Positions 13,039-55,842 of a DNA stretch of 64,000 bases are shown one piece after another. The DNA is from Diphasiastrum complanatum (Eukaryota; Streptophyta; Lycopodiopsida; Lycopodiales; Lycopodiaceae), in contig CM055113.1 in the NCBI GenBank assembly GCA_029204225.1, positions 22,763,605 through 22,827,604 on the forward strand. The letters are read 5' to 3'. The notes beneath the pieces were generated by a model, which searched no databases, was not told the DNA's origin, and was given only the letters and a program-made list of their open reading frames with translations. How positions within the stretch are numbered: the first letter of the stretch is position 1; each line of letters opens with the position of its first letter. The translations under genes and the position numbers were made by a program.

Positions 13039-14450
13039 CTACAAACTTTGGGATCGTAGTTTATCAAACAATGCTTCCGCAAGAAGGCCTTCTAATTATT
13101 CATGTGGGTTCGAAAGTGACAAAATAAACCATCTTAAAACCCTTCGCTCAAAGGAAAATTCTCTGATAATGTGTCAAGGGCTAATCAATAGAGGATATAC
13201 AATGGATCAGGTAGCTACAACGTTGCCGAAAATGCAGATGGTTGTGCATATCATCTTGTTCTAATGCCTTGTGAGCATCAAGCTTTGAAGTGTGAGGATT
13301 CCGTAAGAACTTGTACATCTGAAAGTGAAAGTTATGTTCTTCTGCCATGCATGTAGATCTTAGTTTAGGCACATACAAGAGCCAAACGGTCTGATGTTCA
13401 ATGACTCTTTCGTAAGAGCAAGAAAGCTTGAGTGCTCTCATCCAGATTAAGATTATAAATAAAAAAGACCATTCGCGGCCTACTTCTGTTGATACAAACG
13501 TTGTCAGTAAGAAATAAGCTATGATTCGAGAACTTCGTCGTTACAGCTATTTATCTAGCTTTACAGAAGGAGATTGCAACTACATGTGCTATATCTAGAA
13601 GAACCTTTCTTATTAGGGTAGCTACAAAAAGAAAGAAGACGGATTGTAAATAAAGAGATGGCAACCTGCAAGCATTTTGGCGGATGATTCTCAATACTAA
13701 GTGGTGAGTTGGTACAGAACTTTGTTTTGCTTCTTGAAATCTCCAATTCCAAGCACAAATCAGGACGTATAAAAGAAACTTAATAAATATAAGCTACTGA
13801 TGGTGAATGAGTAAGCTTCGAAATCTTAAATGTCTTTTGCAAGCCCCGCAACATTTTGTCAATCTAAGCAAACGTGCAAGAAGGCTCTACTCCTAGCTAA
13901 CATCAATTACTCAATATAATGCCTTAATTCATCTTTTGCATTGCAAGTAGTTGAAGATCCGTTAATATGAGAATGGATCTTCAACCGGTAAACCTTCCCT
14001 GCAACACTGAAACCACACATATCTTGTATAATCATGAAATATAAATATTTCTCAAATTCTCGTACAAGCTGGTTCTCATAATAATCTCAACCAAAACTAC
14101 AAAGCCAATTTGCTGGTACTCTCCAAGAACTTGCTTCAAACTAGAGTCTAGCATCAACACGAAGCACATCTACAAGTCTACAATAGAAGCGATTATACAA
14201 TCAAATATCAGTCTGCTTAGCTTCTGAAATTGGAAGAAAATCTACTGTATCGAGCTTAAAAGAAAGGCAAATCAGATATTCACTCACAGACTGCATCCGA
14301 ATTCACAGATTGTGGAGTATCAAAGCGAGGACTCTGGCAGAAATAGGATCATCCATTAACAAATATTATCACGCGATCGATGAACAGGAGTAGATAAAAT
14401 GAAGCAGCAGCAGCTCGAGATTGAAATCGAGATCGAGAGCGAGAGAGAGA
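13039..14450 (-). other. 5' region of PIF-like gene (leader and introns likely)
   Basis: No coding exon could be recognised here on the minus strand. A pyrimidine-rich CTCTCTCTCGCTCTCG stretch at about 14450-14430 resembles plant 5' leaders. The acceptor at 13039 (TTTGTAG) implies a large 5' intron. A perfect 10-bp stem hairpin (TTGAAGATCC...GGATCTTCAA) sits at 13951-13984. The exon with the expected APB motif, if it exists, was not found. Confidence 0.45.
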
Positions 14451-33703: not shown

Positions 33704-35075
33704 CTCATTTGTATGGCAAAAAAGAGAAAAATTCCCAACTTCAAGCAGAGGAACGGTAATCCTCACCAACTCACCAGAATGTTTTTGTAGCAAAAAATTT
33801 AAATCTTTTGAGATCACAAAAGCATTGTACTTACTTAAGAAGACCAATAGTGCATCATCATCCCTCATTAAGGCGGGTCATAATTGCAAGGTCCCTAATT
33901 AATGTCTCAAGGAAAAACTCTTAGATTACTTAGCTAAACAATGAACTTGCTGCTTCAAAAATAGAGAAAAAAGCTAAAAACATGTACACTGTTGATCACA
34001 TACAATCATGATTATTGGTCAAGAAAAACATTCAAAAACATTAAAAGCAAAAAAATTTGCATGTCGCACAAATAAGAGTGTCTTGCATCAACAAAGGTTG
34101 CATCATTTCTAGTTAGCCATACTTGTCATATCATTCACAACTTGGAAACATATCAAACATGACGATCGTTATTCATACAAGTACTAATGACGCCCTCCCC
34201 ATAGATTATTCTTTCAATAGATGGATGAGATAAAGACATACGATTAGAAAAATCTAACTCCTCTCAAAGGCCAAGTCTATGATGAAAGAACAAGTGGGAA
34301 AAGTTTTATTTTGTGGACATACACAATGGTCAATATCCATTAGGGACATAAGAAAATATGCAATAGTGTGGTACCGTACGATCAAGAATTTTGAAGGCAA
34401 AAGCTTGCAACTTGATGTAGAAAATAAAGCATAAGATGCTAAAGGCCGAAGAACTATTAAATTGATCCTCCTCAATAAAACACAAAACAATATATCACAG
34501 AAAGGGATCAAGGGTACAAACGAGAATTCCAAAATTTTATTATATTTTCATTAGGATGTAGGGGGCGTGAAAATTCCTAGCCAATGGTAGATAACATGTG
34601 GATATATTATATTCAACAACAATAAGATGAGGCACCTAATTTACGCTACAAAAAAAGGAACATAATCACCAAAGTACTAGAATCCCATCTTGGCCAAAGA
34701 AACAACATTCTAGCGCTAGAAAACAAAATGGGCTATAATAGATTTCAAGCAGTATATATTCTCAAAATCAAGAATTTAAGGAGGAGAATAGAAAGCAAAC
34801 CCCTAGGCAAATTTGTGGCTATAAATGAACCCTTAAACACAAAACCACACACATAAAACAATGAGCTGAAAGCTAGTACCTTCAAAGAACTTGGGGACTC
34901 TTAAGCAAGGATTTGAGATTAAGTAGCATGTACAATTTTGGTGCTTTTGCAAAGAAAAATGAAAGCAAGTTACCTTGTAAATATTGCCCTGTGTAAGAGT
35001 GTCACATATAAATATATGATTTCTAATGTACAAAGCCAGCTCCCTTTTTGTTTTATGTCATGAGTTCCCTCCAAC

Positions 35076-35076
<1 letters not shown>

Positions 35077-35116
<40 letters not shown>
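35077..35116 (+). repeat. (TG)20 microsatellite
   Basis: Uninterrupted TG dinucleotide run of about 40 bp. Confidence 0.95.
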
Positions 35117-35654
35117 CACTACCTATTTGAGATGCAAGTTTACTTTGTCAATTTCTGATGCTTGCGACACCCATCATTTATTGAATAGATTAGTGAAATA
35201 TTGAAGCACACACTTAGAAAGGAACCATATTAATTGCAATCCAACAATATAATCAAGACATGGTAAGCAGCTGGTTGAGCAGTGAGCACCTAGTTGAGTA
35301 GTTGTAGCCTGAGCAACTTAAGCTCAAGTTGCTAGAGTTGTTGCAGCCTAAGCAACTTGCCTACAAAAAGGAGTATTTGTAGGGTGTAGGCTCCTCTTGA
35401 GGCTCAATAGGGTGCATCTTAAGCCCACTTGAGACCCACTTGAGGGCATCTTGATTCTTGAGGTTCAAGAGGAGCCAAGATGCCCTCAAGAGGGTGCTTC
35501 TTGAGGAGCCTCAATAGAGGTCAAGGTGCTAGCATGCCATCAAGGTGCATCTTGAGCCCTCTTGAGACTCGACATGACCTCTAGAGGGCATGCTTATCTG
35601 TTTGTTTAATCTTTGTTCCTCGATTATAATGGGAGTTCAACCTCATAAATCCGT

Positions 35655-36392
35655 CTGATCAACAAGTTCAATGGAGATTATTTTCACATGGAAAATTCAA
35701 GATGAGGATGATCTTAATCGAGAAGGAGCTATGGGAATACGTAAATGGTTCAATAGCTAGACTGGCAAAACCTGAATTGCTCCCAGCATGGGAAGCAAAG
35801 GATGGCAAAGCACTTGCCATTGTATCCTTGAATCTAAAAGACACTCAGATTGCTCATGTATCAAACAACACCACCTCCAAAGAAGTGTGGGATATTCTTA
35901 CAAGTATCTACGAGACCTCAAATGTATTGACTCGTCTCTTCTTGAGAAAGAAGGTCCTCACACTCAAAATGAGCGAAAGCACCTCGGTCAATGATTATCT
36001 AAACGAGTTCAAACAGTTGCTGAATCAACTTGCTATAATAGGTTTTCCTATATCAGAAGAAGACTCAACGATGTCTCTTCTTGCCAATTTTCCATCCTCC
36101 TTTGATAATCTAGTATTGCTTTTGAGCAATACTCCTGCGCTGTCTCTTCAGAAGCTGACAGCAAGTCTTTTGCAAGAAGAAGTACGGAGAAAAAGCTTAT
36201 CCACAACGAGTACCAAGTCAATGGCATTGTCCTCTAATAAGCATCAGTCCAAGAAGAAGAATTTGAATTACAAGAAGACAAAGGCAGAGCATCCAGATTC
36301 AACGCAACAACAACAACAACAACGCAGATAGCAGCAACCATCCAGATCAAACTCTTCTGCAAATATTGAAAAAGATCAAATCATGACATTTA
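35655..36392 (+). pseudogene. copia gag cut inside its zinc knuckle
   Basis: UBN2-type gag. INKFNGDYF at about 35655, a frame break near 35695, then a long frame from 35702 to 36331 with DGKALAIVSLNL, KEVWDILTSIYE, YLNEFKQLLNQL and SLLQEEVRRKSL. After a stop the CCHC knuckle begins (FCKY, a stop in place of Cys, KRSNHDIY) and is cut at about 36390, where the inverted-repeat unit starts. No pol follows, and the rest of this gag was not found at the far side of the unit (50.14 kb). Confidence 0.8.
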
Positions 36393-36599
36393 TTAGAGAA
36401 AATATGGGCCCAAAGAGGGCCCTATAAGAAATGCCATGTAGGAGAGAGAAAAATAACTATAAAGTAATTATAGTATCATTTTCTAACTTCCTTACGCATC
36501 TGCCCGCACTACTTTCCATGTAAATGAATGCACCTTAGTTTAGTCACATCAAACTTCACTGGTGTTTAACCATAGTTAGAATATAATTTTTCAAAATGT

Positions 36600-39482
36600 T
36601 GAAATATTCTCTCCCAATAGTTTGAATTAGGAGTGACACTTTTGAAAAAAGCCTACGCCATCTCTATCTCCAGGGTAAAAAACAAGTGTTTAGCGCCATC
36701 TCAATCTTCAACAGAGTCGTTAGAGCCATCTCCAGCTTTGTTATTGTCATTGTGTTGTTTGTTACTATACTACTGTACTAATGACAAAGCTTTATCATCT
36801 TCATGTGGATCTGTCACCTAAATATATTCCGCTCAGGACGAAAAATTCAAAGCAACCTTGTCAACTTCTGATATGGTCCGATACAGGGAAGAAAAGCTAA
36901 AACATGTAGATTTATGGTCATCAAGAACATTGTATCCTATTGACCCATGTTCATTGCAACATCCAAATTTTCATTCGGTGAGTCAATTGATAATCTATAT
37001 GTGTCATGGTAAAAATGGCCTTTTGGGTTATTGTGAGAATTTGATGCTCTATGGGAATGCACATTCAATGCAAAGAATACATTATTTGGAAGAGGAATCA
37101 AGAAAAACATCAAAGGAGTGCGAAGAAAAATCTACAAAGATGAAAACTTGTCTGGATGAAAATGAGATGCTCAAGGAGGAGATCCAAAGGTTGAAATTTT
37201 TTTTCCATCATTATACAACTAGTAATGATGAGATAAAAATTGCATTTCAATCCATGCGTATCTCATATTTGTCTCTTGTTCAAGATATGGATGTGCTCAA
37301 CAGAAAAGTCCGAAGCAACAAGAGGAAAAGACTGGTAAACAAGGATATGTGTGATCTATCATCCAGAGGAGGTCATAGAAAAAGATGAATCTGTACATTC
37401 AAGTAAGTTATAGCTTATTTGATATTGAATATTGCTTGAACTTTTTGATTCATTCATAATCAATAATTTTGCTATTTATTCATTTCAACTTTTTGTTGAT
37501 TTGCTTATTATATACTGTTGTGAATACTATGAGTGTCCTTATTTCTATTGACATTTTCATGAACATTATGTTTGCAATGCAGATCAGCATTGGTTGTTGA
37601 AGACCATTTGGCCGATGAGATTTCAATTGGAAACTCACTAGGCTCTATCTTGACTTATAAATCTATGAAATCAATGTTAAATAATAACAAAATGAAAAAG
37701 ATCAAGGCTTCAATTACTGATAGCATTATGGATGAAGTTGGAAAAACATTAGACACTACATTGCTTCAGGGGGCACGTGACTTTTCTAGCATCAATAGGG
37801 AAGCATATGCAACAATGTTTAAGATGATAAAGGAGGCATTTGCACAGGTAAGTATTACAAAGTTTCCAATCCCACGACCATTTCATCTTTTAAAAAAAAA
37901 AAACATGTTAAACCATAGTATGCAGACAATATTTGGTAATCCATCTCATATCAATGAAGTGTATTGCTCGAAAGGAGAAAGTCTAGCTTATAACAATTCC
38001 AACAATCTATTTATTGACATTAATCAGTTATTCATTATAAATTTTTACGGTATTACAAATGAGAATGTCAATAACAAGTTGATAGTTGTTCTCAAGTCAG
38101 ATGAGTCTGAAATTATAAAAGGACAAAAAATGAAAAGAGTCAGTCTCACGATCATGAATGGAGCACTTTCAAATTCAGAAGACTCAAAAGGCCTCAATAT
38201 TAGTGTTCAATTAGAAAATGATATCTGGTGGTTGGCAGCATTTCAGGTATAGCAGTTCCTTCGCATAATAAATAGAAATTATCATTTAAATATATTCTCT
38301 ATGTTAATATTATGAGGATAATCATGTTTTTATATTCTCTTATAGGTGCTAAAAGAAGACCATGACATTCTTTCATGGATATTTAATAGAACATCATATC
38401 CTGCCACCATAAAAAATCACATGGAGGGAGTTCCACTCAATATTCCTGGAATTGGCACTTTCAACATTGAATGGCATTTAGCCGGAGATCTGAAGACATT
38501 AAAATGTATGTTCAATGTATCTCATGGTGCTAACTTTAAACACCCTTGTTTGTACTACATGAAAATAGCAAAAGACATGACAAGGAGTACATGAATATCA
38601 AGAGATCGAGAAGATCCTAATTGGAAACCTGTACTACCGATTCCTCTACGAAATGTTCATATCTGTACATTGCATGCGGAGGTGCGTATTATAGAAAAAA
38701 TAATCTATCTTCACGTCTTGTTTGCATGGATTTCCAAGCCAGAGGTCTCTGCGAAAGAAGCTATTTCCATATTAGAGGATGTGTTGTCCAAAGCAAACTT
38801 ACATAAAGACCACGTTAAAATAAAAAAAGATGACAAGCTATTAGGTAAAATAGAAAATATTCCATGCAAGCCGAGCATTGGAGGATCTAAAGCTGCAATA
38901 TTTTTATAAAATTATTCTGGCAAACAATCTAAGGTTCAATACATGGTTTGAAAAGAAATTATTGCAGCAACTCAAGATTTCAAAGAAGAAGGTTCTACTC
39001 ATATACACAAAGTAGAAGTTAGGAAAAGTTAGACAACATGGTGAAATACTTGAGAAAAGATAAATTTTCAAATACTGATGTACAAATGATACAGAAAACA
39101 ACCAATGAATTTGTGGATGCAGTTCAAATGGCATGGGGTGTTGATCATATAACACATTATATGGTAAGATTTTGATTTTACACTACGATAGACAAATATG
39201 TGCAATTAAATTAGATACTTTTGGTACTGATTTAGATTATATTTTTATGACATGCAGCACATATTACGACATCATTCGACATTCTTTGCAAGAAATAGTA
39301 GAAGTCTTAGCATATGGTCATCGCAAGGAATGGAAAAATCTCATTGGCAAGCAAGAGCTGCATTTCATAAAAGTACACAACATGGCGGGACTAGCACAAA
39401 AAATAGCTATATACTGCAACTTTTCCAATGGTTTTACAGAAGAATCCAAATTCGTCACAATACAAAATCGACGGATTATTAA
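36600..39482 (+). pseudogene. gene A copy 1: DDE transposase-like protein with introns
   Basis: Exons can be traced by GT-AG joins: through 37400, 37583-37849, about 37905-38248, 38346-39162 and 39258-39482. The N-terminal part has a hydrophobic segment and an acidic coiled coil (LEEESRKTSKECEEKSTK). The core shows FIDINQLFIINFY, ERVS-type TIM, GDLKTLKCMFN...HPCLYYM, TLHAEVRIIEKIIYL, PCKPSIGGSKA and, after the last intron, SSQGMEKSHWQA. The order GDLK / C-x2-C / LH / QGxEK is that of DDE transposases with a C-x2-C insertion (RAG1/Transib-like and related groups), so it probably cut and joined DNA. The second Cys is Tyr here. In-frame stops (38592, 38906, near 38949) and a one-base deletion near 39027 inactivate it. 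The family is my inference from motifs. Confidence 0.6.
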
Positions 39483-39619
39483 AAATTTCAAAAAGCATGC
39501 AAATTTATCTACACAGTATCCAAAACTTACACATTCGACTTTGTCTTCCTTGATTACTATCTCTCCATCAATATTATGTCCACCTTTCGATGTCAATATT
39601 GTTGGTGAATAGACAGTTG

Positions 39620-40487
39620 GTTGTGGAAAACCAAGTTGACTTTGGATTCTAAGAAACTCCTCCTCAGAAGGTAGATCATCTTCTTTGTTGCGCATTTCCT
39701 CCACATCCATTTTCAAGCAATCTTTCCCTAAATAAACTTATCATTATGTACATCGTCAACACCAGGGAGAAGATCATCAGCATCAAAATCAATTATATCC
39801 GAAAATTCATCAAGCTCTTTGGTCAAAATGCAAAGAGTCTCAGAGATCCGATATATTCGATATTGTCAAAAAGGAATTATTATCTATATTATAAGTAGAC
39901 AAAGTGATCAAAGATTTATCAGAAGGAGAAAGGGTAGTGGGTGTTCTAGGGCCTATAAGCAATTCCCTATTTCGAGCAAGATCAAAATCAAAACAATCAT
40001 CTAAATTAATGTTCGTATCAATAAAAAAGTTATCTATATCTACAATCTTTGACTTTTCAGAATTTTTACCACTAGAAGAAGCAGCCTCAGAAGTGGAAGG
40101 GACAGCCTCCGAATCGTCAGAAATATTTAACAAAAGAAAAAAAATAAAAGCAGACTGAAAATCAACAAATCTGCATTTTTTATTATGAATTGGGCACTCA
40201 TCTACAGCCTTGAAATCATTATGTAACTTGGTAAACATTCTGTCAAGCTTAGCTTTATAGATATGCTTGTCTAGTGCCACCAGGTCCTGATAATGAATCA
40301 TGTCCTTATTCTGAGATTTGAATAACTGAGTGCTGAGCAAAGACTTAAATGTAAGATATATCTCAGAAAATGCCTCCACACCAGGGCCCTCAGTTATAGA
40401 AGGTAAAATAAAAAGAAAAGGAGGAAAAAGAGATTTGAAATACTCCAACCTATAAGTAATACCAAATTCATGAAAAAAAGAAAGCAA
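39620..40487 (-). pseudogene. gene B copy 1: unrecognised acidic protein, truncated
   Basis: Minus-strand frame of 215 codons (40487-39840) beginning LLSFFHEFGI, with KLDRMFTKLHNDFKAVDECP, a Ser/Glu-rich linker and an acidic DIDNFFIDTN segment. After a stop it continues in another frame (39716 on) with EEMRNKEDDLPSEEEFLRIQ to about 39530. The ATG used in copy 2 (45676) is lost here through a small deletion, and the 3' exons are deleted. Convergent with gene A. I do not recognise the family. As a second protein of a transposon it could be a DNA-binding or accessory factor, but this is inference. Confidence 0.5.
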
Positions 40488-40540
40488 ACTAGAATCAAAA
40501 TTAGAATTTTAAACAAAAACAACAGAAGTAAAATTTCAAA

Positions 40541-41316
40541 TATCGCTCTCAAACGCAAACTGCAGGTCGGGCAACACGTCAAGGCAATGTGCGCTCGAGA
40601 GATATATTACAAGTTGGAGTATCGGATCCGAGCGCAAGAATACAAAGCACAAAAGAAAGGAGATGCAATGCATGCTTGAATGCAATACCGGACGAGTGAG
40701 TATCGGATCCAGACGCAAATAATTCAAAGGAGGGTAATCCGAAAATATGGCGCGCTTGAAATCGATATCCGGCCAAACAATCATAAATTTGCATGAAAAT
40801 TCGAGCCGAAAAAGACCTATTTATAAAAAAAAATTCGTACGTGTGGAAGAGTGGCGAAGGAACACGTGTCGACTTGTGATTGGTCAAAATTAATGCGTCG
40901 TACCTAGAATGATTGATCTGACATCTGTCACGTGCGAGAATGACATGCGTCGAGAACGGATTGGTGCATGTGTTCGAGCCCACGTGGCCTCATCATTGTC
41001 AGTATGGACATTCCACATGGACCAATCATCTGACAACACGTGTCTTGGCCATCTTTTCACATGTGCAAAAATTTTGTATATATAAGTCCTCGGAATTTTC
41101 ATTTTTTTTCGCAAAATTTTTGGTTTTCGATCCCAATATCGCTCTCAAGCGCGCTCTCTCACCGTTCAAGCTTCCGCCCTCTCACAGTGCGCTCGAGTCC
41201 GATACCGCTGGTAGTTTAATATCGCTTTTGAGCGCGCATCTCTTTTATTCAAATAATCTGTTTAGATCTTGCGCTCGAAACCGATATTCAGTTTTGGTAT
41301 CGATCTCAAGCGCCCT
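40541..41316. promoter_or_regulatory. divergent promoter with repeated TATCG...GCGC motif and G-boxes (copy 1)
   Basis: Lies between the start of gene B (-) and the H3-like frame (+). A motif near TATCGCTCTCAAGCGCGC occurs in both orientations at about 40541, 40591, 40620, 40701, 40752, 41137, 41189, 41220, 41271 and 41298. CACGTG is present at 40863, 40929, 40981 and 41037. A TATATATAAG box at 41077-41086 points toward the H3-like frame. The conserved motif cluster in both unit copies suggests binding sites for a transcription factor or for the element's own protein. Confidence 0.6.
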
Positions 41317-41395
41317 TTTATCTCAAATTTTTTTGTTTTCATCCACTTTTCTTTTGTTCAAACTTTTTTTTGTTAATTTTCTTCTTCTGAGAATG

Positions 41396-41836
41396 ATGGC
41401 CAAGACCAAATCCACTACCCTTGCCATAACCACTGTACAACCATCCCATTCTCGTGTTCCCCCTGGTACTGGCCGTAGGCATGGCAGGAAGCAGGTCTGG
41501 TTGAGGGGGATCAAAAAATTCTAGAGATCAACTGAATTGTTGATCCCTAGAGCTCCTTTCGACCGATCTGTACGGAATGTCACTCTGTCACTTGGGCTGA
41601 ATGTACGTTTTGTCGTGACAGCCATGCAGACCTTACAGGGTGCTGCAGAAGATTTTCTGTCCCAATTTTTTGAGGATACTTGTCTTTTGGCAGTGCATGG
41701 TAAGCGTGTCACCATCATGCCAAAGGATTTCATCATTCTCAAAAGGCTTCGGGATAGATATTCTGGTCTACATGTTGATAATGCCATTGTGATGCAATGT
41801 ACTGTTTGTCAAAAGTTACTCAATATCAAAACATAG
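41396..41836 (+). pseudogene. divergent, intronless histone H3-like gene with one amber stop
   Basis: One frame from ATG 41396 (MAKTKST start, like the H3 tail) to TAG 41836, interrupted only by TAG at 41522-41524, where histone H3 has Gln in the alpha-N helix. After the stop come STELLIP, APFDRSVRNVTLSL (helix 1), TLQGAAEDFLSQFFEDT (helix 2), KRVTIMPKDF (loop 2/helix 3, nearly identical to H3) and LKRLRDR. AAEDFL, LLIPxAPF and KDF resemble centromeric CENH3, but loop 1 has the canonical length and lacks the CENH3 insertion and Trp. The tail lacks the normal ARKS methylation motifs. H3 proteins form nucleosome cores; this one is too divergent to be canonical. It could be a retrocopy, a captured gene or a stop-suppressed variant. 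A TATA box lies 310 bp upstream. Confidence 0.72.
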
Positions 41837-41839
41837 GCG

Positions 41840-44800
41840 CCAACTATCTCAAATTGCCCCAAAATATTCGGCTTTGTAATGCCTATTTAAATATGTTTTA
41901 TGGACATTATGATGCAATTTACTATTATTTGTCGTGAATTACTTAATATCGAAACAAAGGTGCAGACTATCTGAGATAAGTGATAACTTGCCACAAAATA
42001 ATTGTATAGTGATAAGTAATAGAACATTGTTTGGATATTTGTAGTAGAAACCAAGGATTATGGTGGAATTGTCTCTCTATACTAATTTGATGACATCGAT
42101 TTCTTATGGTGGAATTGTTTTTCCATACTAATTTGATGACATGGATTTCTCATTCAACGACCTCAAATTCAAATTCAGGGTTTACAATGCTCAACATAAT
42201 AATTCTAGCTCATGCGTCGGTTGAGCCCTTTCTTTAAATGAACATGAGCTTAAGGCCGGCTACACACTATAGTGCCTGACGAGTCGCAAATTTAAAATGG
42301 AATCCTCCCATTGGTCCACGAAGGAAAAATGGGTCTCCCCCACTTTCAAACTTACATGTGGCAAATGAGGTGGCATAGGACCCATGCCACGTAGGGGCAA
42401 CTCAGTCCCACTTTTTAGTCCAGGGGCAACTTCACAAAAATGGACTAATCAGTGCAACTGATTTGAAACCACCCTAATAATCAAAGAAAGAGGCCCTATT
42501 GGAAATGGGAGGCATCATGTTGAAGTTTGTGGGGGCCAGTTAAGAAGGAGAGTGTCGTGAAGGTGCAGGGGAGCTGCAGTGGCTGTGAGTTTGTGTAGTA
42601 TTCACGTGGGCAGCTGGAAGGCAATTTGAATGAGCCTGTAGCAGGAGAGACATGAGGTGCATCATTCTAGATAAGCAGAAGATGACTGGGATAAGGCTGC
42701 CCACAGTCTGAAGATTACTGCAGTGCAAGGCCAGTGTGTGTGAGTTTCGCTTCCCTTTCCATGCACATTGCATTGGCCTTGTGGGGGCTAGGCTCAGAAG
42801 TCTTCTCCATCGCATTCAGATTTGTGAAAGTTAAGATCTGTGAGACCAAGAGCATTGTTTTTCTCATAAGTTTGTCAGATTCTGATCCATTGACAGCAAA
42901 GTAGTACCGGTCCTGGCCGTGTGTTATGTTCCCAAGACAAAGTCCACTCCGGCTGGTTAATTAGGCGGCTATAGCAATTGAGCATCTGAGCAGTAGCGGA
43001 ATCAAGTGTGGGTAGACGATTCCATCAGAGTAGTTGGCTGCTCACAGACCAGATCGTTAACACCAATCTTATCGTACATGATAGATAATATGTCAAACAA
43101 AAAAGAAATGCTATTAGAAAGTACTGACAGCCTTTGGTAACCTCTCTTAAGCGTGAACTGGGTCAAATCTTTTTAAAGAACCTTGCTAATGGTCTGACTG
43201 ACAGTTCTTTGCAGTGACATTTATCAGGCTCACTCAGTCCATTTGGATATTGATGATTGTACCTATCTCAAGAGTGTTTGGATGTTATAATTATATTGTA
43301 GTAATGAAGATAAAAGCATGAATAAATATTGGATATTGATGATTGTACCTATCTCAAGAGTGTTTGAATGTTATAATGATATTGTAGTAATGAAGATAAA
43401 AGCATGAATGAATACTTTATCATTCAAATGCTACAATAGAGTATACAAAGAATCGATGTGTTTGTCAATGACATATGCTGAAATAAAGCAGAACTACTGA
43501 ATACTATTTACTACTACTAATTCTTAGTATTCCTCTTCTTTCTTGCTAGTTTTTGTGCCTTGTAGCAACTAGCATTGCATTACAAAATGAGTTTGGCAAG
43601 GTCATAAAACAAAATTATATAACTATAAGTATAAAAAGTGAGGCCCCCAATGTGACAGATGACTTGGCTTAAAAATGCTGAAGTGGGGTAACTGGAGATG
43701 CTAGGGAGTATTCCTGACATCTCCACATTCCTTAGGGCCCCAATCTTTTAGGAGCTGTTCATATTTAAATTCTTTAGGTGGGAGAACATCCTTGTGACTC
43801 ATATAAGATAAAGGACCATATATTACGACTATGGGAATAAAAGCATGGCAGAGTTGGCAAAAGAATTAAATCTACGTAAAATGTATTATGTAATGTCAGA
43901 CACCCGTAGAAGGTGCATTGTACCCGCAAGCCTATGGCGCGCGAGAACTAGAGGTATATTCACTCTCAGATGGGCCCAAAGTGAAAAGGGACCCAAGTAG
44001 TTAAAAATGCAATTCGGTTTTAAAAACTTTGTAAAGTCAAGTTGTTATGTGTCATGCCCACAACTGGTCTCGGATAGCGTATCCCGCTAGAGGTCAGTAG
44101 ACCTACCTCGACCCGTCAGTTAATTATGATTATGAGGGGTTTGGAACCCTCATGTGTATATGGTCATAATTAATGGTTGGAGGCCTAAACTCATGATGGT
44201 GGATTTTTATGGGTCTATCAATGAGTCATAGGGGAACTGGATGATGCAGCCCAAATAGGCTGCATAGGTGTCCAGATGAGCCTTGGAGGGTATAAGTATA
44301 CCCATTGGTGCATGCTTGATTGTGTGATTAGTAGCTACATGATGCTGGTGTGATTCATCCTTTCCTCGTGAAGATTGATCCATAGCTTGGGGGCTAGATC
44401 CGTAAGATCTAGATTTGGTTGGGTTGGTTTGTCCACCGTCCGATTTCCTTGTGTTGCTTATTGTTGGCTTGCTTAGTGTTGGTGGATCCTTGTGATTGGA
44501 CTTTATATTATGGCACATGGTTTGGGTGAACAAAAACCCAAACCCTAGAAATGTCTCTATAAAGGCATGTGACACCATTTTTGAGCCACCTTTTTCATTA
44601 ATAGAGTTGTGTGTGTGAGAGAGAGTATCTCCTCCTTCCTATCTTTTGCTTGCAAAAGCCCTCCTCTTTTGAATTTTTGTGATTCTTGTGGATGATAGAT
44701 GCTTGTTATGTTTTGTTAATCACAACTACAAATGATCTTTAGCATAAGCATTCATCTCTCTAGTTTCTAAAACTAATCCATAAAATCCACACACAACCAA

Positions 44801-45182
44801 AATAGGTGTTCTACATTTTAGAGAGATCACTAAGGTCCTCCCTTGAGAAAATCAACCTCTTGAGGAGAAGATCTAGATCCAAGGATGCCTAGATAAACCA
44901 AAAGCAACCAAGAACCAAGAAAAGAGAAAAGTAAAATCAAGAAAACACCAAAAAGAAAAAGAAAGGATAATGAATCTCACCCCTAGATCTAAGCCATTCC
45001 ACTTTTAGATCCCACACTAAGCTTGATATCCTTAGTAGACTTAGATCCCCATTCCTATTACTCCATTTACCCTCTCCCCATTGGATCGAAACCCGGTACT
45101 ATAACCAACTATTCATTCAGAATAGATCCATAAAACCCCCTCTTTGCCCTTTAGATCCATCCGATTAAAGAGGCACAGTTAG
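41840..45182. other. spacer between the two unit copies; possible solo LTR
   Basis: No supported gene. Contains an 86-bp tandem duplication (43245-43416). TGTCATGCCC at about 44049 with CTCTATAAAGG at about 44556 downstream resembles an LTR U3 region, so a solo LTR may occupy roughly 44.05-45.1 kb; its end was not found. Confidence 0.4.
43245..43416 (+). repeat. 86-bp tandem duplication
   Basis: GGATATTGATGATTGTACCT starts at 43245 and 43331, and both copies run to AAAAGCATGAAT. Only a few differences separate them. Confidence 0.85.
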
Positions 45183-45283
45183 AGCGATATTGGAAACTAA
45201 AAGCGAAAATTTTGCGAAAAAATATAAAATTTTCGAGGACTTATATATACGAAATTTCCGCACATGTGAAAAGACGGCGAGGA

Positions 45284-45642
45284 CACGTGTCGATATATTA
45301 TTAGCCCACATGGACTGTCCGTATTGACAATGATGACCTTATTATTAGGCCACGTGGGCTGAGACACGTGCGTGAATGCACTCTCGATGCATGTCATTCT
45401 CGCACGTGACAGATATCGATTTCAAGCGTGCTGCTTGCTCTCATTACCCATTCGTTGACTATTTTGCGCCTGGATTCGATACTGCATCGTCCGATATCGC
45501 ATTCAAGTGCGCTTCGCATCTCTTTTCTTTTTTGATCTTTGTTCTTGCACTCGGATCCGATACTCCAACTTAAAATATCTCTCTCGAGCGCACGTTGCCT
45601 TGCTGTGCTTGCCTGATCTAGGTTTCGTGCCTGAGAGCGATA
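45284..45642. promoter_or_regulatory. divergent promoter motif cluster (copy 2)
   Basis: The same TATCG...GCGC motif recurs at about 45414, 45466, 45495, 45547, 45576 and 45633, and CACGTG at 45284, 45351, 45365 and 45403. A TATATATA stretch at about 45242-45249 matches the TATA box of copy 1 and points away from gene B. Confidence 0.6.
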
Positions 45643-45675
45643 TTTAAAATATTAGTTTCGTTGTTTTTGTTTAAT

Positions 45676-47174
45676 ATGTCTAATTTTGAATCTACTTTGC
45701 TTTCTTTTTTTCATGAATTTGGTATTACTAATAGGTTGGAGTACTTTAAATCTCTTTTTTCTTCTTTTCTTTTTATTCTACCTTCTATAACTGAGGGCCC
45801 TGGTGTGGAGGCATTTTCTAAGATATATCTTAGATATAAGTCCCTGCTCAGTACTCTCTTATTCAGATCTCAGAATAAGAACATGATTCATTATTAGGAC
45901 CTGGTGGCACTCGACAAGCATATCTATAAAGCTAAGCTTGACAGAATGTTTACCAAGTTACATAATGATTTCAAGTTTGTAGATGAGTGCCCAATTCATA
46001 ATAAGAAATGTAGATTTGCTTTTGTTTTTTTTTATTTTGTTAAATATTTTTGACGATTTGGAGGCTGTTCCCTCCACTTGTGAAACAGTTTCTTCTAGTG
46101 GTACAAAGTCTAAAAAATCAAAGATTGTAGATATAGATACTTTTTTTTATTGATACGCGTGTTTGTTTAGATGATTGTTCTGATTTTGATCCTGCTCGAA
46201 ATAGGGCTACGTTTATAGGCCCTAGAACCCCCACTACCCTTTCTCCTTCTGATAAATCTTTGATCACTTTGCCTACTTATAATATAGATAATAATTTCTT
46301 TTTGACAATATCGGATATATCGGATCTTTTTTACTTCACTGAAGCTGTGACTCTTTGCATTTTGAGCAAAGAGCTAGATGAATTTTTGGATATAATTGAT
46401 TCTGATGATCTTCTCTCTGGTGTTGACGATGTACATAATGATAAGTTTTATTTAGGGAAAGATTGCTTGAAAATGACTGTGGAGGAAATGCGCAACAAAG
46501 AAGATGATCTACCTTTTGAGGAGGAGTTTCTTAGAATCCAAAGTCAACTTGGTTTTCCACAGCCAACTGTCTATTCACCAACAATATTGACATCAAAAGG
46601 TGGACATAATATTGATGGAGAGACAGTAATCTGTGAAGACAAAGCCGAATGCGTAAATTTTTGTATCTTATCAAGTACTAGTAGAAAAATTATGTCAGTT
46701 TATATACTGAAGCTTACTTTGTTTTTTATCATTTCAGAAAACAATTTTCTTGCTGATTTCGCAATTCGTCGAGGAGGGCAGAGATCTTTTGATGGAGAAT
46801 TTTCAAGAGATCATGCACTAGGGCACTATCTGAAGTCCTTCAAGAATAATGATATAAGTGTTGCTCATTCAAAGTTCCATCAACATGGTGAAACTATGAT
46901 TATGGCAATAAGGCACTGTCTCATTTTCTTGGAGGACATAATTTCAATAAAGGTTCATAAAATAATTTTGTAATAAAAACTATTGCGGTTAAAATTTTAG
47001 GATATAAACAAGTGAATTACATGCTCAGATCATCTCATTTTGCAGTGTATGCTGCTTACGTTGATCTGAGTAAGCATGAAAACTATGAGCTCTTGGATCC
47101 ATACAAAAGAAGAAAATTGTTGCATGATTCTAAGTTGCAACTTTCATTGGAAAAAATATCGGAAGCAGATTAGA
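45676..47174 (+). pseudogene. gene B copy 2: unrecognised protein, fuller version
   Basis: ATG at 45676, frame LLSFFHEFGITNRLEYFKSL, then TAG at 45895 where copy 1 has CAG. After frame breaks near 46030 and 46150 it continues with TPTTLSPSDKSLITLPTYNI, an acidic EFLDIIDSDD stretch, EEMRNKEDDLPFEEEFLRIQ and IDGETVI. A probable intron (about 46653-46735) leads to FLADFAIRRGGQRSFDGEFS, DHALGHYLKSFK and HSKFHQHGETMIMAIRHC, then a second intron (about 46954-47045) to YAAYVDLSKHENYELLDPYK, ending at TAG 47172-47174. It ends only about 60 bp from the convergent end of gene A. The family is unknown to me; exon structure is inferred from GT-AG sites. Confidence 0.5.
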
Positions 47175-47233
47175 TATTGCTCAATTGTACTTTGTAAATA
47201 TTTTTATTTAATATACAAAATTTTATTGTGTGT

Positions 47234-49936
47234 CTATAGCCTATTGGCTTGTATAAATTTGCATGCTTTTTGAAATTTTTTATAATCCGTCGATTTTGTA
47301 TTATGACGAATTTGGATTCTTCTGTAAAACCATTGGAAAAGTTACAATATATAGCTATTTTTTGTGCTAGTCCCGCCATGTTGTGCACTTTTATGAAATG
47401 CCGCTCTTGCTTGCCAATGATATTTTTCCATTCCTTGCGATGACCATATGCTAAGACTCCCACTATTTCTTGCAAAGAATGTCGAATGATGTCGTAATAT
47501 GTGCTGCATATCATAAAAACATAATCTATATAAGTACCAAAAGTATCTAGTTTAATTGCACATATTTGTCCATCGTAGTGTAAAATCAAAATCTTACCAT
47601 ATAATGTGTTATATGATCAACACCCCATGTCATTTGAACTGTATCCACAAATCCATTGGTTGTTTTCTGTATCATTTGTGAATCAGTATTTGAAATTTTA
47701 TCTTTTCTCAAGTATTTCACCATGTTGTCTAACTTTTTCCTAACTTCTACTTTGTGTATATGAGTAGAACCTTCTTCTTCGAAATCTTGAGTTGCTGCAA
47801 TAATTTCTTTCCAAACCATGTATTGAACCTTAGATTGTTTGCCAGAATAATTTGATAAAAACATTCGAGCTTTAGATCCTCCAATGCTCGGCTTGCATGG
47901 AATATTTCTTGTTTTACCTGATAGCTTGTCATCTGTTTTTATGTTAAAGTGGTCTTTATGTAAGTCTGCTTTGGACAACACATCCTCTAATCTGGAAATA
48001 GCTTCCTTCATAGAAGCCTCTGGCTCGGAATTCCATGCAAACAAGGCGTGAAGATATATTATTTTTTCTATAATATGCACCTCCGCATGCAATGTACAGA
48101 TATGAACATTTCGTAGAGGAATCGGTAGTACAGGTTTCCAATTAGGATCTTCTCGATCTCTTGATATTCATGTACTCCTTGTCATGTCTTTTGTTGTTTT
48201 CATCCAGTACAAACAAGGGTGTTTAAAGTTAGCGCCATGAGATACATTGAACATACATTTTAATGTCTTCAGATCTCCGGCTAAATGTCATTCGATGTTG
48301 AAAGTGCCAATTCCAGGAATATTGAGTGGAACTCCCTCCATGTGATTTTTTTTGGTGGCAGGATATGATGTTCTATTAAATATCTATGAGAGAATGTCAT
48401 GGTCTTCTTTCAGCACCTATAAGAGAATATAAAAACGTGATTATCCTCATAATATTAACACAGATAAGATTTTAGATATGAAATTCATATTCAAATGATT
48501 ATCCCCATTTATTATGCGAAGGAATTACTATACCTGAAATGCTGCTAACCACCAGATATCATTTTCTAATTGAACACTAATATTGAGGCTTTCTGAGTCT
48601 TCTGAATTTGAAAGTGCTCCATTCATGATCGTGAAACTGACTCTTTCCATTTTTTGTCCTTTTATAATTTCAGACTCATCTGACTTGAGAACAACTATCA
48701 ACTTGTTATTGACATTCTCATTTGTAATATTGTAAAAATTTATGATGAATAATTGATTAATGTCAATAAATAGATTGTTGGAATTGTTATAAGCTAGACT
48801 TTCTCCTTTCGAGCAATACACTTCATTGATATGAGATGGATTACCAACTATTGTCTGCATACCATGGTTTAACATGTCTTTTTTTTTAAAAGATGAAATG
48901 GTCGTGGGATTGAAAACTTTTTAATATTTACTTGTGCAAATGCCTCCTTTATCATCTTAAACATTGTTGCATATGCTTCCCTACTGATGCTAGAAAAGTC
49001 ACATGCCCCCTGAAGCAATGTAGTGTCTAATGTTTTTCCAACTTCATCCATAATGCTATCAGTAATTAAAGCCTCAATCTTTTTCATTTTGTTATTATTT
49101 AACATTGATTTCATAGATTTATAAGTCAAGATAGAGCTTAGTGAGTTTCCAATTGAAATCTCATCGGCCAAATGGTCTTCAACAACCAATGCTGATCTGC
49201 ATTGCAAACATAATGTTCATGAAAATGTCAGTAGAAATAAGGACACTCATAGTATTCATAGCAGTATATAATAAGCAAATCGACAGAAAGTTGAAATGAA
49301 TAAATAGCAAAATTATTGATTATGAATGAATCCTCCTTGAGCATTTCATTTTTCATCCAAACAAGTTTTCATCTTTGTATATTTTTCTTCGCACTCCTTT
49401 GATATTTTCCTTGATTCCTCTTCCAAATAATGTATTCTTTGCATTGAATGTGCATTCCCATAGAGCATCAAATTCTCACAGTAACCCAAAAGGCCATTTT
49501 TACCATGACACATATAGATTATTAACTGACTCACCGAATGAAAATCTGGATGTTGCAATGAACATGGATCATTAAAATACCATATTCCTGATGACCATAA
49601 ATCTACATGCTTTAGCTTTTCCTCCCTGTATCGAACCATATCAAAATTGACAATTTGGGTTGCTTTGAATTTCTTGTCATGAGCGGAGCATATTCTGGTG
49701 ACAGATCCACATGAAGATGATAAAGCTTTATCATCAGTACAGTAGTATAGTAACAAACAACACAATGACAATAACAAAGCTAGAGATGGCGCTAACGACT
49801 CTGTTGGAAATATAGATGGCGCTAAACACTTGTTTTTGACCCTGGAGATAGAGATGGTGTAGGTTTTTTTCAGAAATGTCACTTCTAATTCAAATTTTTG
49901 AGTGTTCCCAACTATTAAGAGAGAATATTTCAACAT
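47234..49936 (-). pseudogene. gene A copy 2: DDE transposase-like protein, damaged
   Basis: Starts with ATG at 49936 and gives one 196-codon frame through the coiled coil. The next 270 bp found in copy 1 are deleted. Further exons (49207-48890, 48875-48541, about 48430 down to 47590, 47510-47234) parallel copy 1. The C-x2-C reads CLYWM, while copy 1 has CLYYM, so each has a different single change at what was probably a Cys codon. The TGA after DMTRST is shared with copy 1, implying that it predates the duplication. The stretch 48092-47586 is open here but broken in copy 1. The C-terminal exon reads on past the copy 1 stop to TAG at 47234-47236. Function as for copy 1. Confidence 0.58.
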
Positions 49937-50137
49937 TTTAAAAAATTACATTTTAATTATGGTTAAGCGCTAGTGAAGTTTGATGTGACTAAACTAAGGT
50001 GCATTCATTTACATGGAAAGTAGTGCGGACAGATGTGTAAAGAAGTTAGAAATTGATATTATAATTACTTTATAGTTATTTTTCTCGCTCCTACATGAAA
50101 TTTTTTATAGGGCCCTTTTTGGGCCCATATTTTCTCT

Positions 50138-50900
50138 AATGTCTATCTTCCAACCACAGCACGAGTCTTCTCTCCAGGTCCTACATGAGCTGCAGAGCAA
50201 CTTATCAAGCTAGGGAGAAGTAACAAAAGAATCAACTTGGATATTTTCTTTGAAAAGAAGTGACCCAAGTGACATTTTTCCAAACCAAACAGGTATATCA
50301 GAATTTGCCAATCTGTCTGCAGCCCTAACAAATCCTAATATTTCATTTTATCACCTCCATGAATTTTGACCATGGTCAGATTCTGAGAAAGTAGCCTGAT
50401 ATACTGTCAAAATCCCTTATTTTTCACCCAAATCTTTGTCGTAGAATTCGTTGGCTTCACTGAGGCTAGATCTCATCAAGATCGGTCCTCCAACAGCTCC
50501 GCAAATCCTATCTCAGAGATTTTGCCTGTTTTCTATCAGAAAGTCACATTTTTTCCCATATTTTATATTGCCAATAAAGACACCTTCGGCTTTTTGTAGG
50601 GCAAGTGTCGCATTTTTTGCCTGTTAGAAAACCCGTGTAAAAACACAGTGTCAAGTTTTCCGCATTTTTCGGCTGTCATAAAACATGTGTAAAAATCCAG
50701 ACTGTAGCAACAATCAGTTCAAAAATGCAGACTGTTTATTCATTTTCTACAGGTTACATTTGATAGAGTAAAAATTAAAGAACAAAGGAGGGCTGTTGGG
50801 ACTAGGAATTGGATTAAATTCCAACAAAGATTACTTCAAAATTAAAAATGCTTTCCGCCATACATTGCCAACTACCTACTCTCTTAAAGGGGCAAATGAC
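50138..50900. other. non-coding stretch, LTR-like words
   Basis: No gene seen. CACCTTCGGCTTTTT and GCAAGTGTCGCATTT near 50580-50625 recur, the second inverted, in the copia 1 LTR at 4.54-4.62 kb, so an LTR remnant is possible. Confidence 0.35.
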
Positions 50901-50908
50901 TTTTGATG

Positions 50909-51834
50909 TCCCTCTAAGTGCGTTGCTTGGTGTTCTCAGGACCTCCTTCCTGAGCTCCCTTTACCTACATGTTTCGATACTCCGGCTGATGGGATTCGAG
51001 CGCTTGGTATTCCAATAGGTTTTTCGGACTTTGTGACTTCCTCTTTGCGGAACACTTTGGACGCACATCTTCGTCACGCTCATTTGCTACCAAAGCTTGG
51101 CAACGCTCAAGTTGCTCTAGGAATTCTCACTCAATGCTTCGCTCAACGGCCAAATTATATTCTACGGTGTGTTCCTCTCTCTCTTGATGTTTTGGCTTTG
51201 TTACAGGATTTCGATAATACTTTATCAGGTTTTTTTGGGTCGCTTGATGGGTTCAGAATCCTTTCATATTCCCAATGGTCAGTTTGTTAAGCGACAAGTC
51301 TCTCTTCCCACTTCTTCCGGAGGTGCCGGTCTTTCTTGCACAGCTTCTATTGCTCCAGTTGCTTTTCTGGGAAGTTGGGCCCTTGTTGCCTCTGCACTTA
51401 TCTCTTGGTTTCAACAGGACAACAAGCCCATTCTTCTTGATTCAGTAGCTCATGTAGAAACAGACACTCTTCCTTTCCAACAACATCTTCGTGTGGCCAA
51501 GGATCTCATCCCTCCACCTATGTGAGCTTATTTGCCTCCCTTTGAGACTTCATTTAGCCATCAACATGCTCATTTTCAAAAGTATCTTTTGGAGTGCTTC
51601 CACTCACATGCTTTAACTCAGTTTCTCAGTGATTCACCTTCTGATGAGACTCAGGCTCGTCTTATGTCTTGTGCAGGACCAGGTGCTGGTGCTTGGCTTG
51701 TTGAGCGCCCTGTTGTTCCACACTTGCACCTTTCTTTGGAGCTTTTTGTTACCGCTCTTCGAGTTAAGTTGGGTCTCCCTCATCCAGTGCTGACAGGTTT
51801 GACAAAATGTTCATGTGGTCACCCCTACCTATGA
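50909..51834 (+). pseudogene. C-terminal part of a non-LTR (LINE-type) reverse transcriptase protein
   Basis: Reads PSKCVAWCSQDLLPELPLPT, then the post-RT thumb region (LGIPIGFSDFVTSSLRNTLD). A frameshift in a T-run near 51235 leads to SLPTSSGGAGLSCTASIAPV, a TGA at 51523, LMSCAGPGAGAWL and a terminal CSCG. The K-C-x-x-W start, GGxGL segment and GPGAGAWL end are typical of LINE-like RT proteins after the catalytic palm, so the element is 5' truncated as is usual for LINEs. The Cys motif may be part of a zinc-binding tail. No endonuclease, FADD-type catalytic motif or poly-A tail was found. Confidence 0.65.
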
Positions 51835-52660
51835 ATTCACAGATCCAAAAATGGCTTTATATATATAGAGAGAGAGAGACACGAGTTTTCTAGCTATAAA
51901 CCCTAGCTGAAATAAACCTCCACAAGAGAGATAGTTGCAACTTCTGTATGCCTCTATGCTTGTCCACGACCACATACAAACCAGGTAACCCTCCAAAAAT
52001 GCCCATCTATAGCTTTTTATAGATTACGAACATATTTTTCGTTGATTGTCATGCACCCTATGTGCGTTGAATCACCACATGGTCATGACTATCCAGCACC
52101 AATTGCTAGCTCTATCTCGCAATAAACAACTCATGAATTCATGGAGAATTGCTTCTCTTACGAGTACTTTTCCGTTAGCAGCTTCAAGGTTGTTCAACCA
52201 ATCGATTTTTTAATTCTCCGAAAATTTGGCTCCCAACTAACCATGAACTGCTTATGATGTAGCCTCTAATACCATGTCGAGGATCATTCTTGTAGTAAAC
52301 ATCAGTTAATTCAAATGCTAACATTATTGTACATATAATCATCAGTATTTTAGGGGGTTCGATGCATGGCAGGTCAGACCCATTACGAGATGTGTCACAA
52401 CTCGCTACTAGTTGTGTCGTGAAAGTGATACTGACACGTACCGTATGTACAAAGTAAAGTAGAAAAACTAATGAAAATGAAAATACAAGTCAAATTTCCA
52501 GATAAACAGGAATTACATATTTTGACAACAAGAGGGTTTAAGTCACCTACAAGTGAACCCTTAACTATGTGCAAGAATGTGTGACGCTTGGCCATCCATA
52601 CTGGTGTCACTTGGCAATAACTAAGAAGATCTTAATCAATTAAAAATATTGGGTTGATCA
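51835..52660. other. non-coding stretch
   Basis: No gene seen. A short GA run (51867-51880) follows a TATATATA word. Confidence 0.4.
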
Positions 52661-53110
52661 TGTTGAGATTTTGGTGCTTCCTTCATGATCTTGGTACTTA
52701 CTATATGATTATCCTAATCCTTTGATTCAAAAGCATTATGGACACATAGTGGTGTGAAATAGATAAAAGTAGACTAGTTATTTTGCGTGCTAGTTATCAT
52801 GGGATTGGATTCATGTCCACCACCATCTTGTACATATTTTTATGATGATTGAGAAAAGTGAAAAGGTTTCCATCTCGAGTTCTAGTGAGATAATGCCACT
52901 TCACAAAATGTAAGGATTGCAAATTTGCTAGTAATGAGTCCAAATCCAAATCTCATTGGCTCATGAGGTCCAATCATGTTAAGTGGTGTAGACCATCAGG
53001 CCAATCACAATACGAAGTGTAAATCATGTGGCCCAATTACATTAACAAGTGAAAATCATGTGGCCCAATCATATTATAAAGTGCAAATCATGAGGCCCAA
53101 TCATCCAACA
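52661..53110 (+). repeat. 5' LTR of copia 5 with internal tandem array
   Basis: Begins TGTTGAGATT and ends ATCCAACA immediately before a tRNA-Met primer site, so it fits a 450-bp LTR. Its last 150 bp consist of a degenerate 33-bp repeat (AATCATGTGGCCCAATCA-like), and the same family occurs inverted at 22.07-22.45 kb. The start is inferred. Confidence 0.6.
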
Positions 53111-53122
53111 TGGTATCAGAGC
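53111..53122 (+). other. copia primer-binding site (tRNA-iMet)
   Basis: TGGTATCAGAGC, the standard copia PBS complementary to initiator tRNA-Met, directly after the LTR's terminal CA. Confidence 0.85.
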
Positions 53123-53262
53123 AATAGTTCCTATAGTCTCTACTATTTGATACTTTTATAGAGCTTATATTGTCAGAAGTGTTGTTCTGAAATATTGTAG
53201 ACACTCATTATAATTGTTTCCAGTCATATAATCTACTATCCGCATAAATCTCTAACTTTTAA

Positions 53263-55769: not shown

Positions 55770-55842
55770 GGGCGGATAGCTCAGTGGTAAAGCATCCCAT
55801 CCGGTATGAGGGAGGTCCTGGGTTCGAATCCTAGTCTGTCCA
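55770..55842 (+). tRNA. tRNA-like sequence, probably decayed
   Basis: 73 bases. A 7-bp acceptor stem (GGGCGGA with TCTGTCC, two G-T pairs), box A TAGCTCAGTGG (55777-55787), perfect box B GGTTCGAATCC (55821-55831) and a good T-arm are present. The anticodon stem (TCCCA / TGAGGGA) pairs only if one inserted base is bulged, and the loop lacks a clear T33, so no anticodon can be assigned. There is no T-run terminator. It may be a tRNA pseudogene, an organelle-derived insertion or the head of a SINE. It ends 29 bp before an LTR. Confidence 0.55.

Follow-up and report, generated by a model that had tools for sequence, protein, structure and literature searches.

A DNA transposon family with its own H3-derived domain in the genome of the clubmoss Diphasiastrum complanatum

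Capture of histone H3 by transposons is already known from fungi. There, hAT elements of the Dothideomycetes Pseudocercospora fijiensis and Pyrenophora tritici-repentis carry transduplicated histone H3, and the H3-hATs of P. fijiensis are described as inactivated by repeat-induced point mutation (RIP), a C-to-T type process (PMC6710886). Other mobile DNA carries SET methyltransferases and TET/JBP dioxygenases (PMC12730594), or fragments of histones H4 and H15, as in a Culex Helentron (PMC4067079). The targets of VANC anti-silencing in VANDAL (MuDR) elements are clustered motifs that multiply as tandem repeats, and VANC-type proteins are named DUF1985/DUF287 (PMC5735166). In the literature searched, with subscription journals mostly outside coverage, the fungal hATs alone turned up as H3-carrying transposons. 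Here we describe a transposon family with its own H3-derived domain in the genome of the clubmoss Diphasiastrum complanatum. We analysed a stretch of 64,000 nucleotides, hereafter the window (assembly GCA_029204225.1, contig CM055113.1, positions 22,763,605 to 22,827,604 of the forward strand), in which the reading frame at 41396-41786 is the truncated start of one gene, gene C, of a DNA transposon. Compared with the elements of PMC6710886, the family differs in the fusion of H3 to further sequence, the lost K9, signs of constraint and the element's own promoter.

The H3-like frame comprises the following features:

41396..41786, + strand: first 130 codons of gene C, a histone H3 domain with an altered tail (Pfam, PDB, residue comparison, genome matches).
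41522..41524, + strand: in-frame TAG, seen in 7 of 29 copies (sequence, copy alignment).
41787..41836, + strand: non-gene-C DNA past the truncation point, in frame by accident (ends of genome matches).

A preliminary description of this DNA had reported a single H3-like frame at 41396-41836 (+) broken by one TAG. The frame reads as described, codon 43 being its single in-frame TAG. When the stop is read as X, the Pfam Histone profile PF00125 is matched at E=2.8e-22, so that the profile search proposed there returned a significant hit and a chance open frame can be rejected. A PDB chain named H3.1 is matched at E=1.2e-20. From a set of 5.8 billion proteins, searched with the 146-residue query and a length filter, the top-scoring match shares 54% identity over 59% of the query. 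In an ungapped comparison with Arabidopsis H3.1, 43 of 88 fold residues are equal; R69, R72, R83, H113, K115, R116, T118, K122 and D123 are kept, among them what we take to be DNA-contact residues, and K56 is replaced by Arg. The gene itself is shorter than first described. Of 40 genome matches, 38 end at query base 485-488, which indicates that the family sequence comprises 41396-41786 only and that the last 50 bases are other DNA joined to the truncated gene. No other core histone with a significant match was found in the window.

The wider family was recovered from the searched genome of 1.74 Gb (5,176 contigs). Window positions 41300-41900 gave 40 scored matches at 92-100% identity among 1,624 first-look candidates; this figure, like the 10,399 given below, counts candidates rather than confirmed copies. 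Twenty matches were fetched (L009-L028), of which L009 was excluded from the counts as a duplicate of the window. The remaining 19 loci were selected through their match to H3; the counts retain the near-identical pairs, which are L011/L012 and L014/L019 here and L034/L035 below. All 19 have the H3 segment; half or more of the promoter segment is present in 18, of the gene B segment in 15, and of the four gene A segments in 8, 9, 11 and 12. In all 19, the shared sequence continues past the window's break at 41786, by ~140 nt or more, and the copies are spread over many contigs. The joint occurrence of H3, promoter and gene B segments in many copies bears out the earlier suggestion that the H3-like gene is part of a mobile element; it is not a lone gene beside a transposon-like unit, as also described, but belongs to the transposon itself. 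Gene B copies flanked by an H3 frame do occur, and the possibility that all gene B copies lack an H3-like frame thus fails. Few gene B copies came to light by routes other than H3: the second copy in the window, which has no H3, and one locus with H3, seen in the near-identical L011 and L012.

These data also bear on the simplest rival, an ordinary H3 retro-pseudogene that came to lie beside a transposon by chance. The window frame has no intron and a single stop, as such a pseudogene might; however, the H3 segment is joined to at least half of the same promoter segment in 18 of the 19 loci, and the shared sequence passes the window's break in every one. The multi-copy genome matches, the homology map and the joined promoter rule out a lone H3 pseudogene, and we give this explanation a negligible chance.

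In the other copies, the H3 domain leads into a linker containing one basic (RRKRKQ..) and one acidic (SSESDAGESDSD) stretch, followed by a C-terminal region; together these add ~250 residues beyond the H3 domain, and the first exon of gene C encodes 369-376 residues (four copies translated, P0262-P0265). The exon ends at a splice-donor-like sequence, and coding-like sequence lies further downstream. Gene C is thus probably spliced, with later exons; the absence of introns remarked upon earlier applies to the window frame, and not, as far as these sequence features suggest, to the longer gene. When the gene C protein was compared with the genome, 109 places were scored among 10,399 first-look candidates. 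Ten are free of stops (one 54-residue piece not counted), five of them covering the whole query; nine of the ten were fetched, and five (L033-L037, with L034 and L035 nearly identical) are open across the full exon. The family therefore includes open gene C copies; its member in the window is truncated and dead. The open copy P0262 matches PF00125 at 2.9e-23, and the H3 part is free of indels in 17 of 20 loci.

In most copies the altered tail reads ARTKSTARAITTVQ or close to it, where the H3 counterpart is ARTKQTARKSTGGK. K4 is retained in 28 of 28 readable copies. Of the 29 copies, 28 have Ala at the K9 site, all have Ile at the S10 site, and 26 have Gln at the K14 site (assuming no gap). The tail is ~13 residues shorter than that of H3 and has no second ARKS, and the region of K27 and K36 is missing; of the modifiable K4, K9, K14 and K27 of an H3 tail, most copies retain K4 alone.

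An alignment of 29 copies (the window, the 19 loci and nine further loci) accounts for the stop codon. Codon 43 is TAG in seven copies and a sense codon in 22, and all 17 stops in the H3 part across the alignment are TAG. Changes from the commonest letter are dominated by G>A (191) and C>T (176), and by context these comprise 197 at 57 CHG sites, 81 at 22 CG sites and 89 at 116 CHH sites. This CG/CHG bias is the signature left by prolonged cytosine methylation and deamination, and methylation-linked deamination at CG/CHG explains the TAG at the position of H3's glutamine.

The same alignment was used to assess selection by the ratio of nonsynonymous to synonymous polymorphism (pN/pS). The raw value for the H3 part is 0.51, which is uninformative because five control frames give 0.46-0.72. 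With C>T and G>A excluded, the true frame gives 0.52, against 1.13 and 1.52 in control frames. Transversions common to at least two copies comprise 12 synonymous and eight nonsynonymous changes (P=1.2e-4 relative to available sites, if sites are independent). When variants other than C>T/G>A are restricted to those shared between copies (28 copies), the H3 part gives 0.21 (controls 1.22, 2.68), the linker 0.66 (1.01, 2.62) and the C-terminal part 0.58 (0.74, 1.00); when unshared variants are added, the H3 part gives 0.48 (1.35, 1.63). These ratios support, with reservations given below, the H3 domain as the most constrained part of gene C once C>T/G>A changes are set aside. In simulations of neutral decay from H3 to about half identity, a mean of 3.4-4.5 stops accumulated, with one stop or none in 5-15% of runs, and indels arose under assumed rates. 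That the frame is still mostly open at about half identity to H3 therefore implies older constraint.

This signal of selection makes passive transduplication less likely, namely that a host H3 coding sequence was captured once and then copied along, as in the Dothideomycete hATs. Passive capture has that fungal precedent (PMC6710886), the raw pN/pS matches that of the control frames, and most scored copies carry stops, with many of the fetched ones frameshifted or cut. However, it does not lead one to expect the constraint on the H3 domain among shared variants other than C>T/G>A, a domain of about half identity to H3 with so few stops and, in most loci, no indel, or the joining of H3 to a longer frame, open in several copies. 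We regard passive capture as improbable.

The preliminary description had also seen a leaning towards the centromeric histone CENH3, which raises the alternative that a captured CENH3 guides the element to centromeres or subverts them. Several signatures named there, LLIPxAPF, AAEDFL and KDF, are indeed present in the window frame; LLIPxAPF also occurs in P0001 and P0005, both of which have an H3 Pfam domain, and the motifs STELLI, FEDT and TIMPKD are canonical. Alignment with plant CENH3s and CENP-A bears out the canonical length of loop 1, which is not lengthened. Among the matches listed for the window frame, H3.1 reaches 82 bits, human CENP-A 77 and all seven plant CENH3s 68-73. For P0262, the order among PDB sequences is CENP-A (73.8 bits), H3.Y (72.8), H3.3 (72.5) and H3.1 (71.2), and Pfam lists CENP-T_C just over its cut-off (29.1 vs 28.1 bits). 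In a phylogenetic tree, from a comparison set thin for ferns and lycophytes and without the host's own H3 and CENH3, the H3 domains of five gene C copies group as a single clade whose branch measures 1.89 changes per column; when the topology is free, this clade falls outside that of plant CENH3. A forced grouping of the transposon domains with plant CENH3 is not rejected (approximately unbiased (AU) test, p=0.217), in a comparison where long branches meet. We read the domain as a divergent H3; its kinship to CENH3 is not supported by these comparisons, and the AU result and the lead of ~1 bit held by CENP-A in the PDB list for P0262 nevertheless keep it conceivable. Centromere targeting, against which the loop, the scores, the free tree and the spread of copies over many contigs all speak, appears very unlikely. 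Two proteins met in this comparison, P0251 (named CENH3 in public sets) and P0187, each consist of two canonical H3s in tandem and look like gene-model fusions; many animals and plants have proteins under CSE4- or CENH3-type names that resemble these two in length and Pfam composition.

The organization of the element was read from the two window copies and from the fetched loci:

36391..41786, + strand: element copy 1, from its left end to a break inside gene C (left end common to other copies; homology map).
36391..36401, + strand: left terminal inverted repeat (TIR), CATTAGAGAAA in most copies, with the first base different here (left and right ends of copies).
36858..39482, + strand: gene A, predicted DDE transposase, approximate span with exons not fully resolved (relatives P0121-P0140, fold of P0126, motif read-out).
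39522..40519, - strand: gene B, transcribed towards gene A; the presumed start codon is missing from copy 1 (open frames; start compared by eye with copy 2).
40541..41313, no strand assigned: bidirectional promoter region with 9 exact TATCGN6RRCGC sites, 4 near gene B and 5 near gene C (motif scan).
41076..41086, + strand: TATA-like box GTATATATAAG before gene C, present also in copy 2, of presumed function (sequence).
45181..50141, - strand: element copy 2, inverted, comprising gene A, gene B and a portion of the promoter, with its cut inside a motif (self-comparison of the window).

The order along the element is TIR, gene A, gene B (convergent with A), motif-array promoter, gene C, TIR. Eight left ends (L009, five other loci and the two in the window) and seven right ends were compared: the left ends are CATTAGAGAAA in most copies, the right ends are its inverse, and four loci extended downstream share one common right end. 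Three copies with both ends measure 8,405, 8,772 and 9,000 bases; two of them are flanked by 2-bp duplications (TA, CA), and the third has none. The two window copies, 36392-41145 (+) and 50140-45181 (-), are inverted relative to each other and share segment identities of 79-94%. Their common part ends in the middle of a TATCGN6RRCGC site, and the array of copy 1 continues to the H3-like start; an H3 beside copy 2 was looked for and not found. Compared with other copies, copy 1 has lost ~600 nt from the interval that separates genes A and B (39508 to 39522) and everything right of 41786, a part that spans 2.9-3.7 kb in the three complete copies. Copy 1 is dead.

Two candidate boundaries were set aside. 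The end of the part common to both window copies (41145/45181) was dropped as an element end because the motif array crosses it and genome copies show the real ends, and a left-flank repeat at 43216 was dropped as a target site duplication once the real right ends had been seen. The insertion site of copy 1 is in a copia retrotransposon, in its gag close to the codons of the zinc knuckle (window 35702-36390); the remainder of this copia was not found by tblastn in 34000-53200. Window 35655-44500, including flanks, recurs inverted at 99% identity ~300 kb away on the same contig (L009, C22:23105200-23115000), a recent segmental duplication. At L015, together with L029, several further inverted pieces of the element lie inside 19 kb, apparently a nested cluster.

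Gene A is, judged by predicted fold and motifs, a DDE transposase of RAG1/Transib type. Its relative P0126 is predicted to adopt a RAG1/Transib fold and has D, D and E with complete C(2)C and H(4)H, the pattern given for CMCT/RAG1-type DDE transposons in PMC12730594. Across 21 window and locus sequences, of which 9-12 align at each motif, the first D is present in 10 of 10 and the second in 9 of 9. In copy 1, gene A is broken: it carries stops and lacks the second Cys of C(2)C. Fold and motifs are the basis of the RAG1 link, because a profile of the gene A relatives gave a single weak coiled-coil match among PDB sequences (E 0.049); no transposase family appears among the best 25 of 35 Pfam rows for the 20 relatives, each row being weak and from one member (best E 0.015). 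No viral relative of gene A was confirmed in IMG/VR. A pN/pS of 0.88 between the two gene A copies of the window was rejected as evidence. A RAG1/Transib-fold transposase in a clubmoss genome would bear on the history of the RAG lineage.

The divergent arrangement of gene C and gene B around a common motif-rich promoter, claimed from the outset, is confirmed by the nine exact sites listed above. Allowing at most one mismatch, TATCGN6RRCGC occurs 17 times in the window against 2.6 expected in shuffles. The 19 other copies average 4 exact sites per 900 nt in front of the H3 ATG, versus 0.046 elsewhere, with none at L015. The promoter region is tandemly doubled, as two ~500-nt copies, in five of the 19 (L014, L019, L024, L027 and L028, with L014/L019 near-identical). 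Two scanned pieces of gene B, from broken copies, gave no Pfam match.

The strongest rival to a shielding role for the H3 domain is a role in transposition itself, in which the gene C product would act within the transposition complex, either as an architectural protein or as a tether to chromatin. Together with H4, the H3 domain would bind or mimic nucleosomal DNA at the motif arrays or at targets and so aid synapsis or target choice, with the tail changes a by-product. Such a cofactor would fit the promoter that gene C shares with gene B, the linkage of gene C to the transposase, and also the retained DNA-contact residues and the concentration of constraint in the H3 domain. However, a cofactor role does not itself predict that the K9 site should be Ala, and the S10 site Ile, almost throughout while K4 is kept. 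We consider it somewhat unlikely.

The mechanism that we favor, with confidence a little below even, is a transposon-encoded H3 that resists silencing by H3K9 methylation. The H3 domain would pair with host H4 and enter nucleosomes, or form an H3-H4-like unit, on element DNA, to which it may be brought by binding of the motif arrays by the gene B protein or by the C-terminal part of gene C. Chromatin containing the gene C H3 could not take dimethylated H3K9 (H3K9me2), because its K9 is Ala (K4 is kept, and the K27/K36 region is missing). In plants, H3K9me2 and CHG methylation sustain each other in a loop. On element chromatin unable to receive H3K9me2, this loop would be weakened and the element would resist silencing, as VANDAL does with VANC, here by means of a histone. 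We infer the pairing with H4, nucleosome entry, targeting and resistance to H3K9me2 and CHG methylation from the features set out above. The fuller proposal, that a RAG1/Transib-type plant transposon with a K9-to-Ala H3, a fused targeting domain and expression from motif arrays builds unmarkable nucleosomes as an epigenetic shield, is more tentative still, and doubtful in its entirety.

Several observations weigh against the shielding mechanism and the evidence on which it draws. Motif binding by gene B or the C-terminal part of gene C is itself a proposal, and the fusion could prevent nucleosome assembly. In the window frame, R63 is replaced by Pro and C110 by Leu, relative to the Arabidopsis H3.1 used above. 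The structural model of gene C is poor (mean predicted local distance difference test score (pLDDT) of 48), with helices at 31-46, 55-65, 74-104 and 109-123, and the transposase fold is that of P0126, a relative from a protein search with a mean pLDDT of 68. Several gene A copies lack catalytic residues, the second Cys being kept in 6 of 9 and the E in 8 of 12. For selection, the raw pN/pS does not set the true frame apart from controls, and the variant classes that carry the signal were chosen after that raw test had failed, with near-duplicate loci kept in the counts. All variant types found in at least five copies give 0.54 (controls 0.72, 0.48), and once unshared variants other than C>T/G>A are counted as well, neither the linker (1.14; controls 1.08, 1.61) nor the C-terminal part (0.80; controls 0.82, 0.96) shows a signal. 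The stops, frameshifts and truncations noted above show decay, and silencing has apparently won at these places. Finally, L021 is the sole copy of the 29 with Lys at the K9 site. That Lys could mark an older subfamily or be a chance change.

If the shielding mechanism holds, the element would represent a new type of anti-silencing device, in which mobile DNA would have made a counter-defence out of the nucleosome itself, and escape from the H3K9me2-CHG methylation loop would become directly testable. The many copies are, moreover, a record of H3 evolving outside host constraints. Elsewhere in the window, a tRNA-Thr gene lies at 55770-55842, and open frames on the - strand at 10769-13082 resemble a phytochrome-interacting bHLH factor, possibly a host gene, with no Pfam match. 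The window gave no plasmid match.

Taken against known systems, the family is a mosaic of familiar and unfamiliar features. CACTA/EnSpm elements have a TIR that starts with CACTA and a target site duplication of 2-3 bp. The TIR described here begins CATTAG, which we take to be close to CACTA, and a 2-bp duplication (TA or CA) is seen at two of the three complete copies and none at the third. Compared with transposons of RAG1/Transib fold, the clubmoss element has an additional histone gene. Like the fungal H3-hATs (PMC6710886), it is a DNA transposon with an H3-derived sequence that has no introns and occurs in tens to hundreds of copies. Unlike them, it has a predicted RAG1/Transib-fold transposase, a plant host and a far more divergent H3, which is fused to a long C-terminal part, has Ala at the K9 site and bears signs of purifying selection; its motif-array promoter is common to a second element gene. 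As with the elements of PMC12730594 and PMC4067079, this is mobile DNA with chromatin-modifying or histone genes; those encode enzymes or broken fragments, whereas the clubmoss core-histone domain is open in several copies. No VANC (DUF1985/DUF287) or MULE (Mutator-like element) family is found among the Pfam rows listed for the gene B pieces, gene C exon 1 and the gene A relatives. By analogy, the nearest working counterpart of the proposed mechanism is nevertheless VANC of VANDAL elements. Both families have a plant host, extra element genes, short motifs clustered in non-coding parts and tandem duplication of the motif region. They differ in that VANC is not described as a histone in PMC5735166, in the predicted RAG1/Transib fold of the clubmoss gene A, and in that anti-silencing is here a proposal, one in which the transposon would escape its host by supplying the histone itself.
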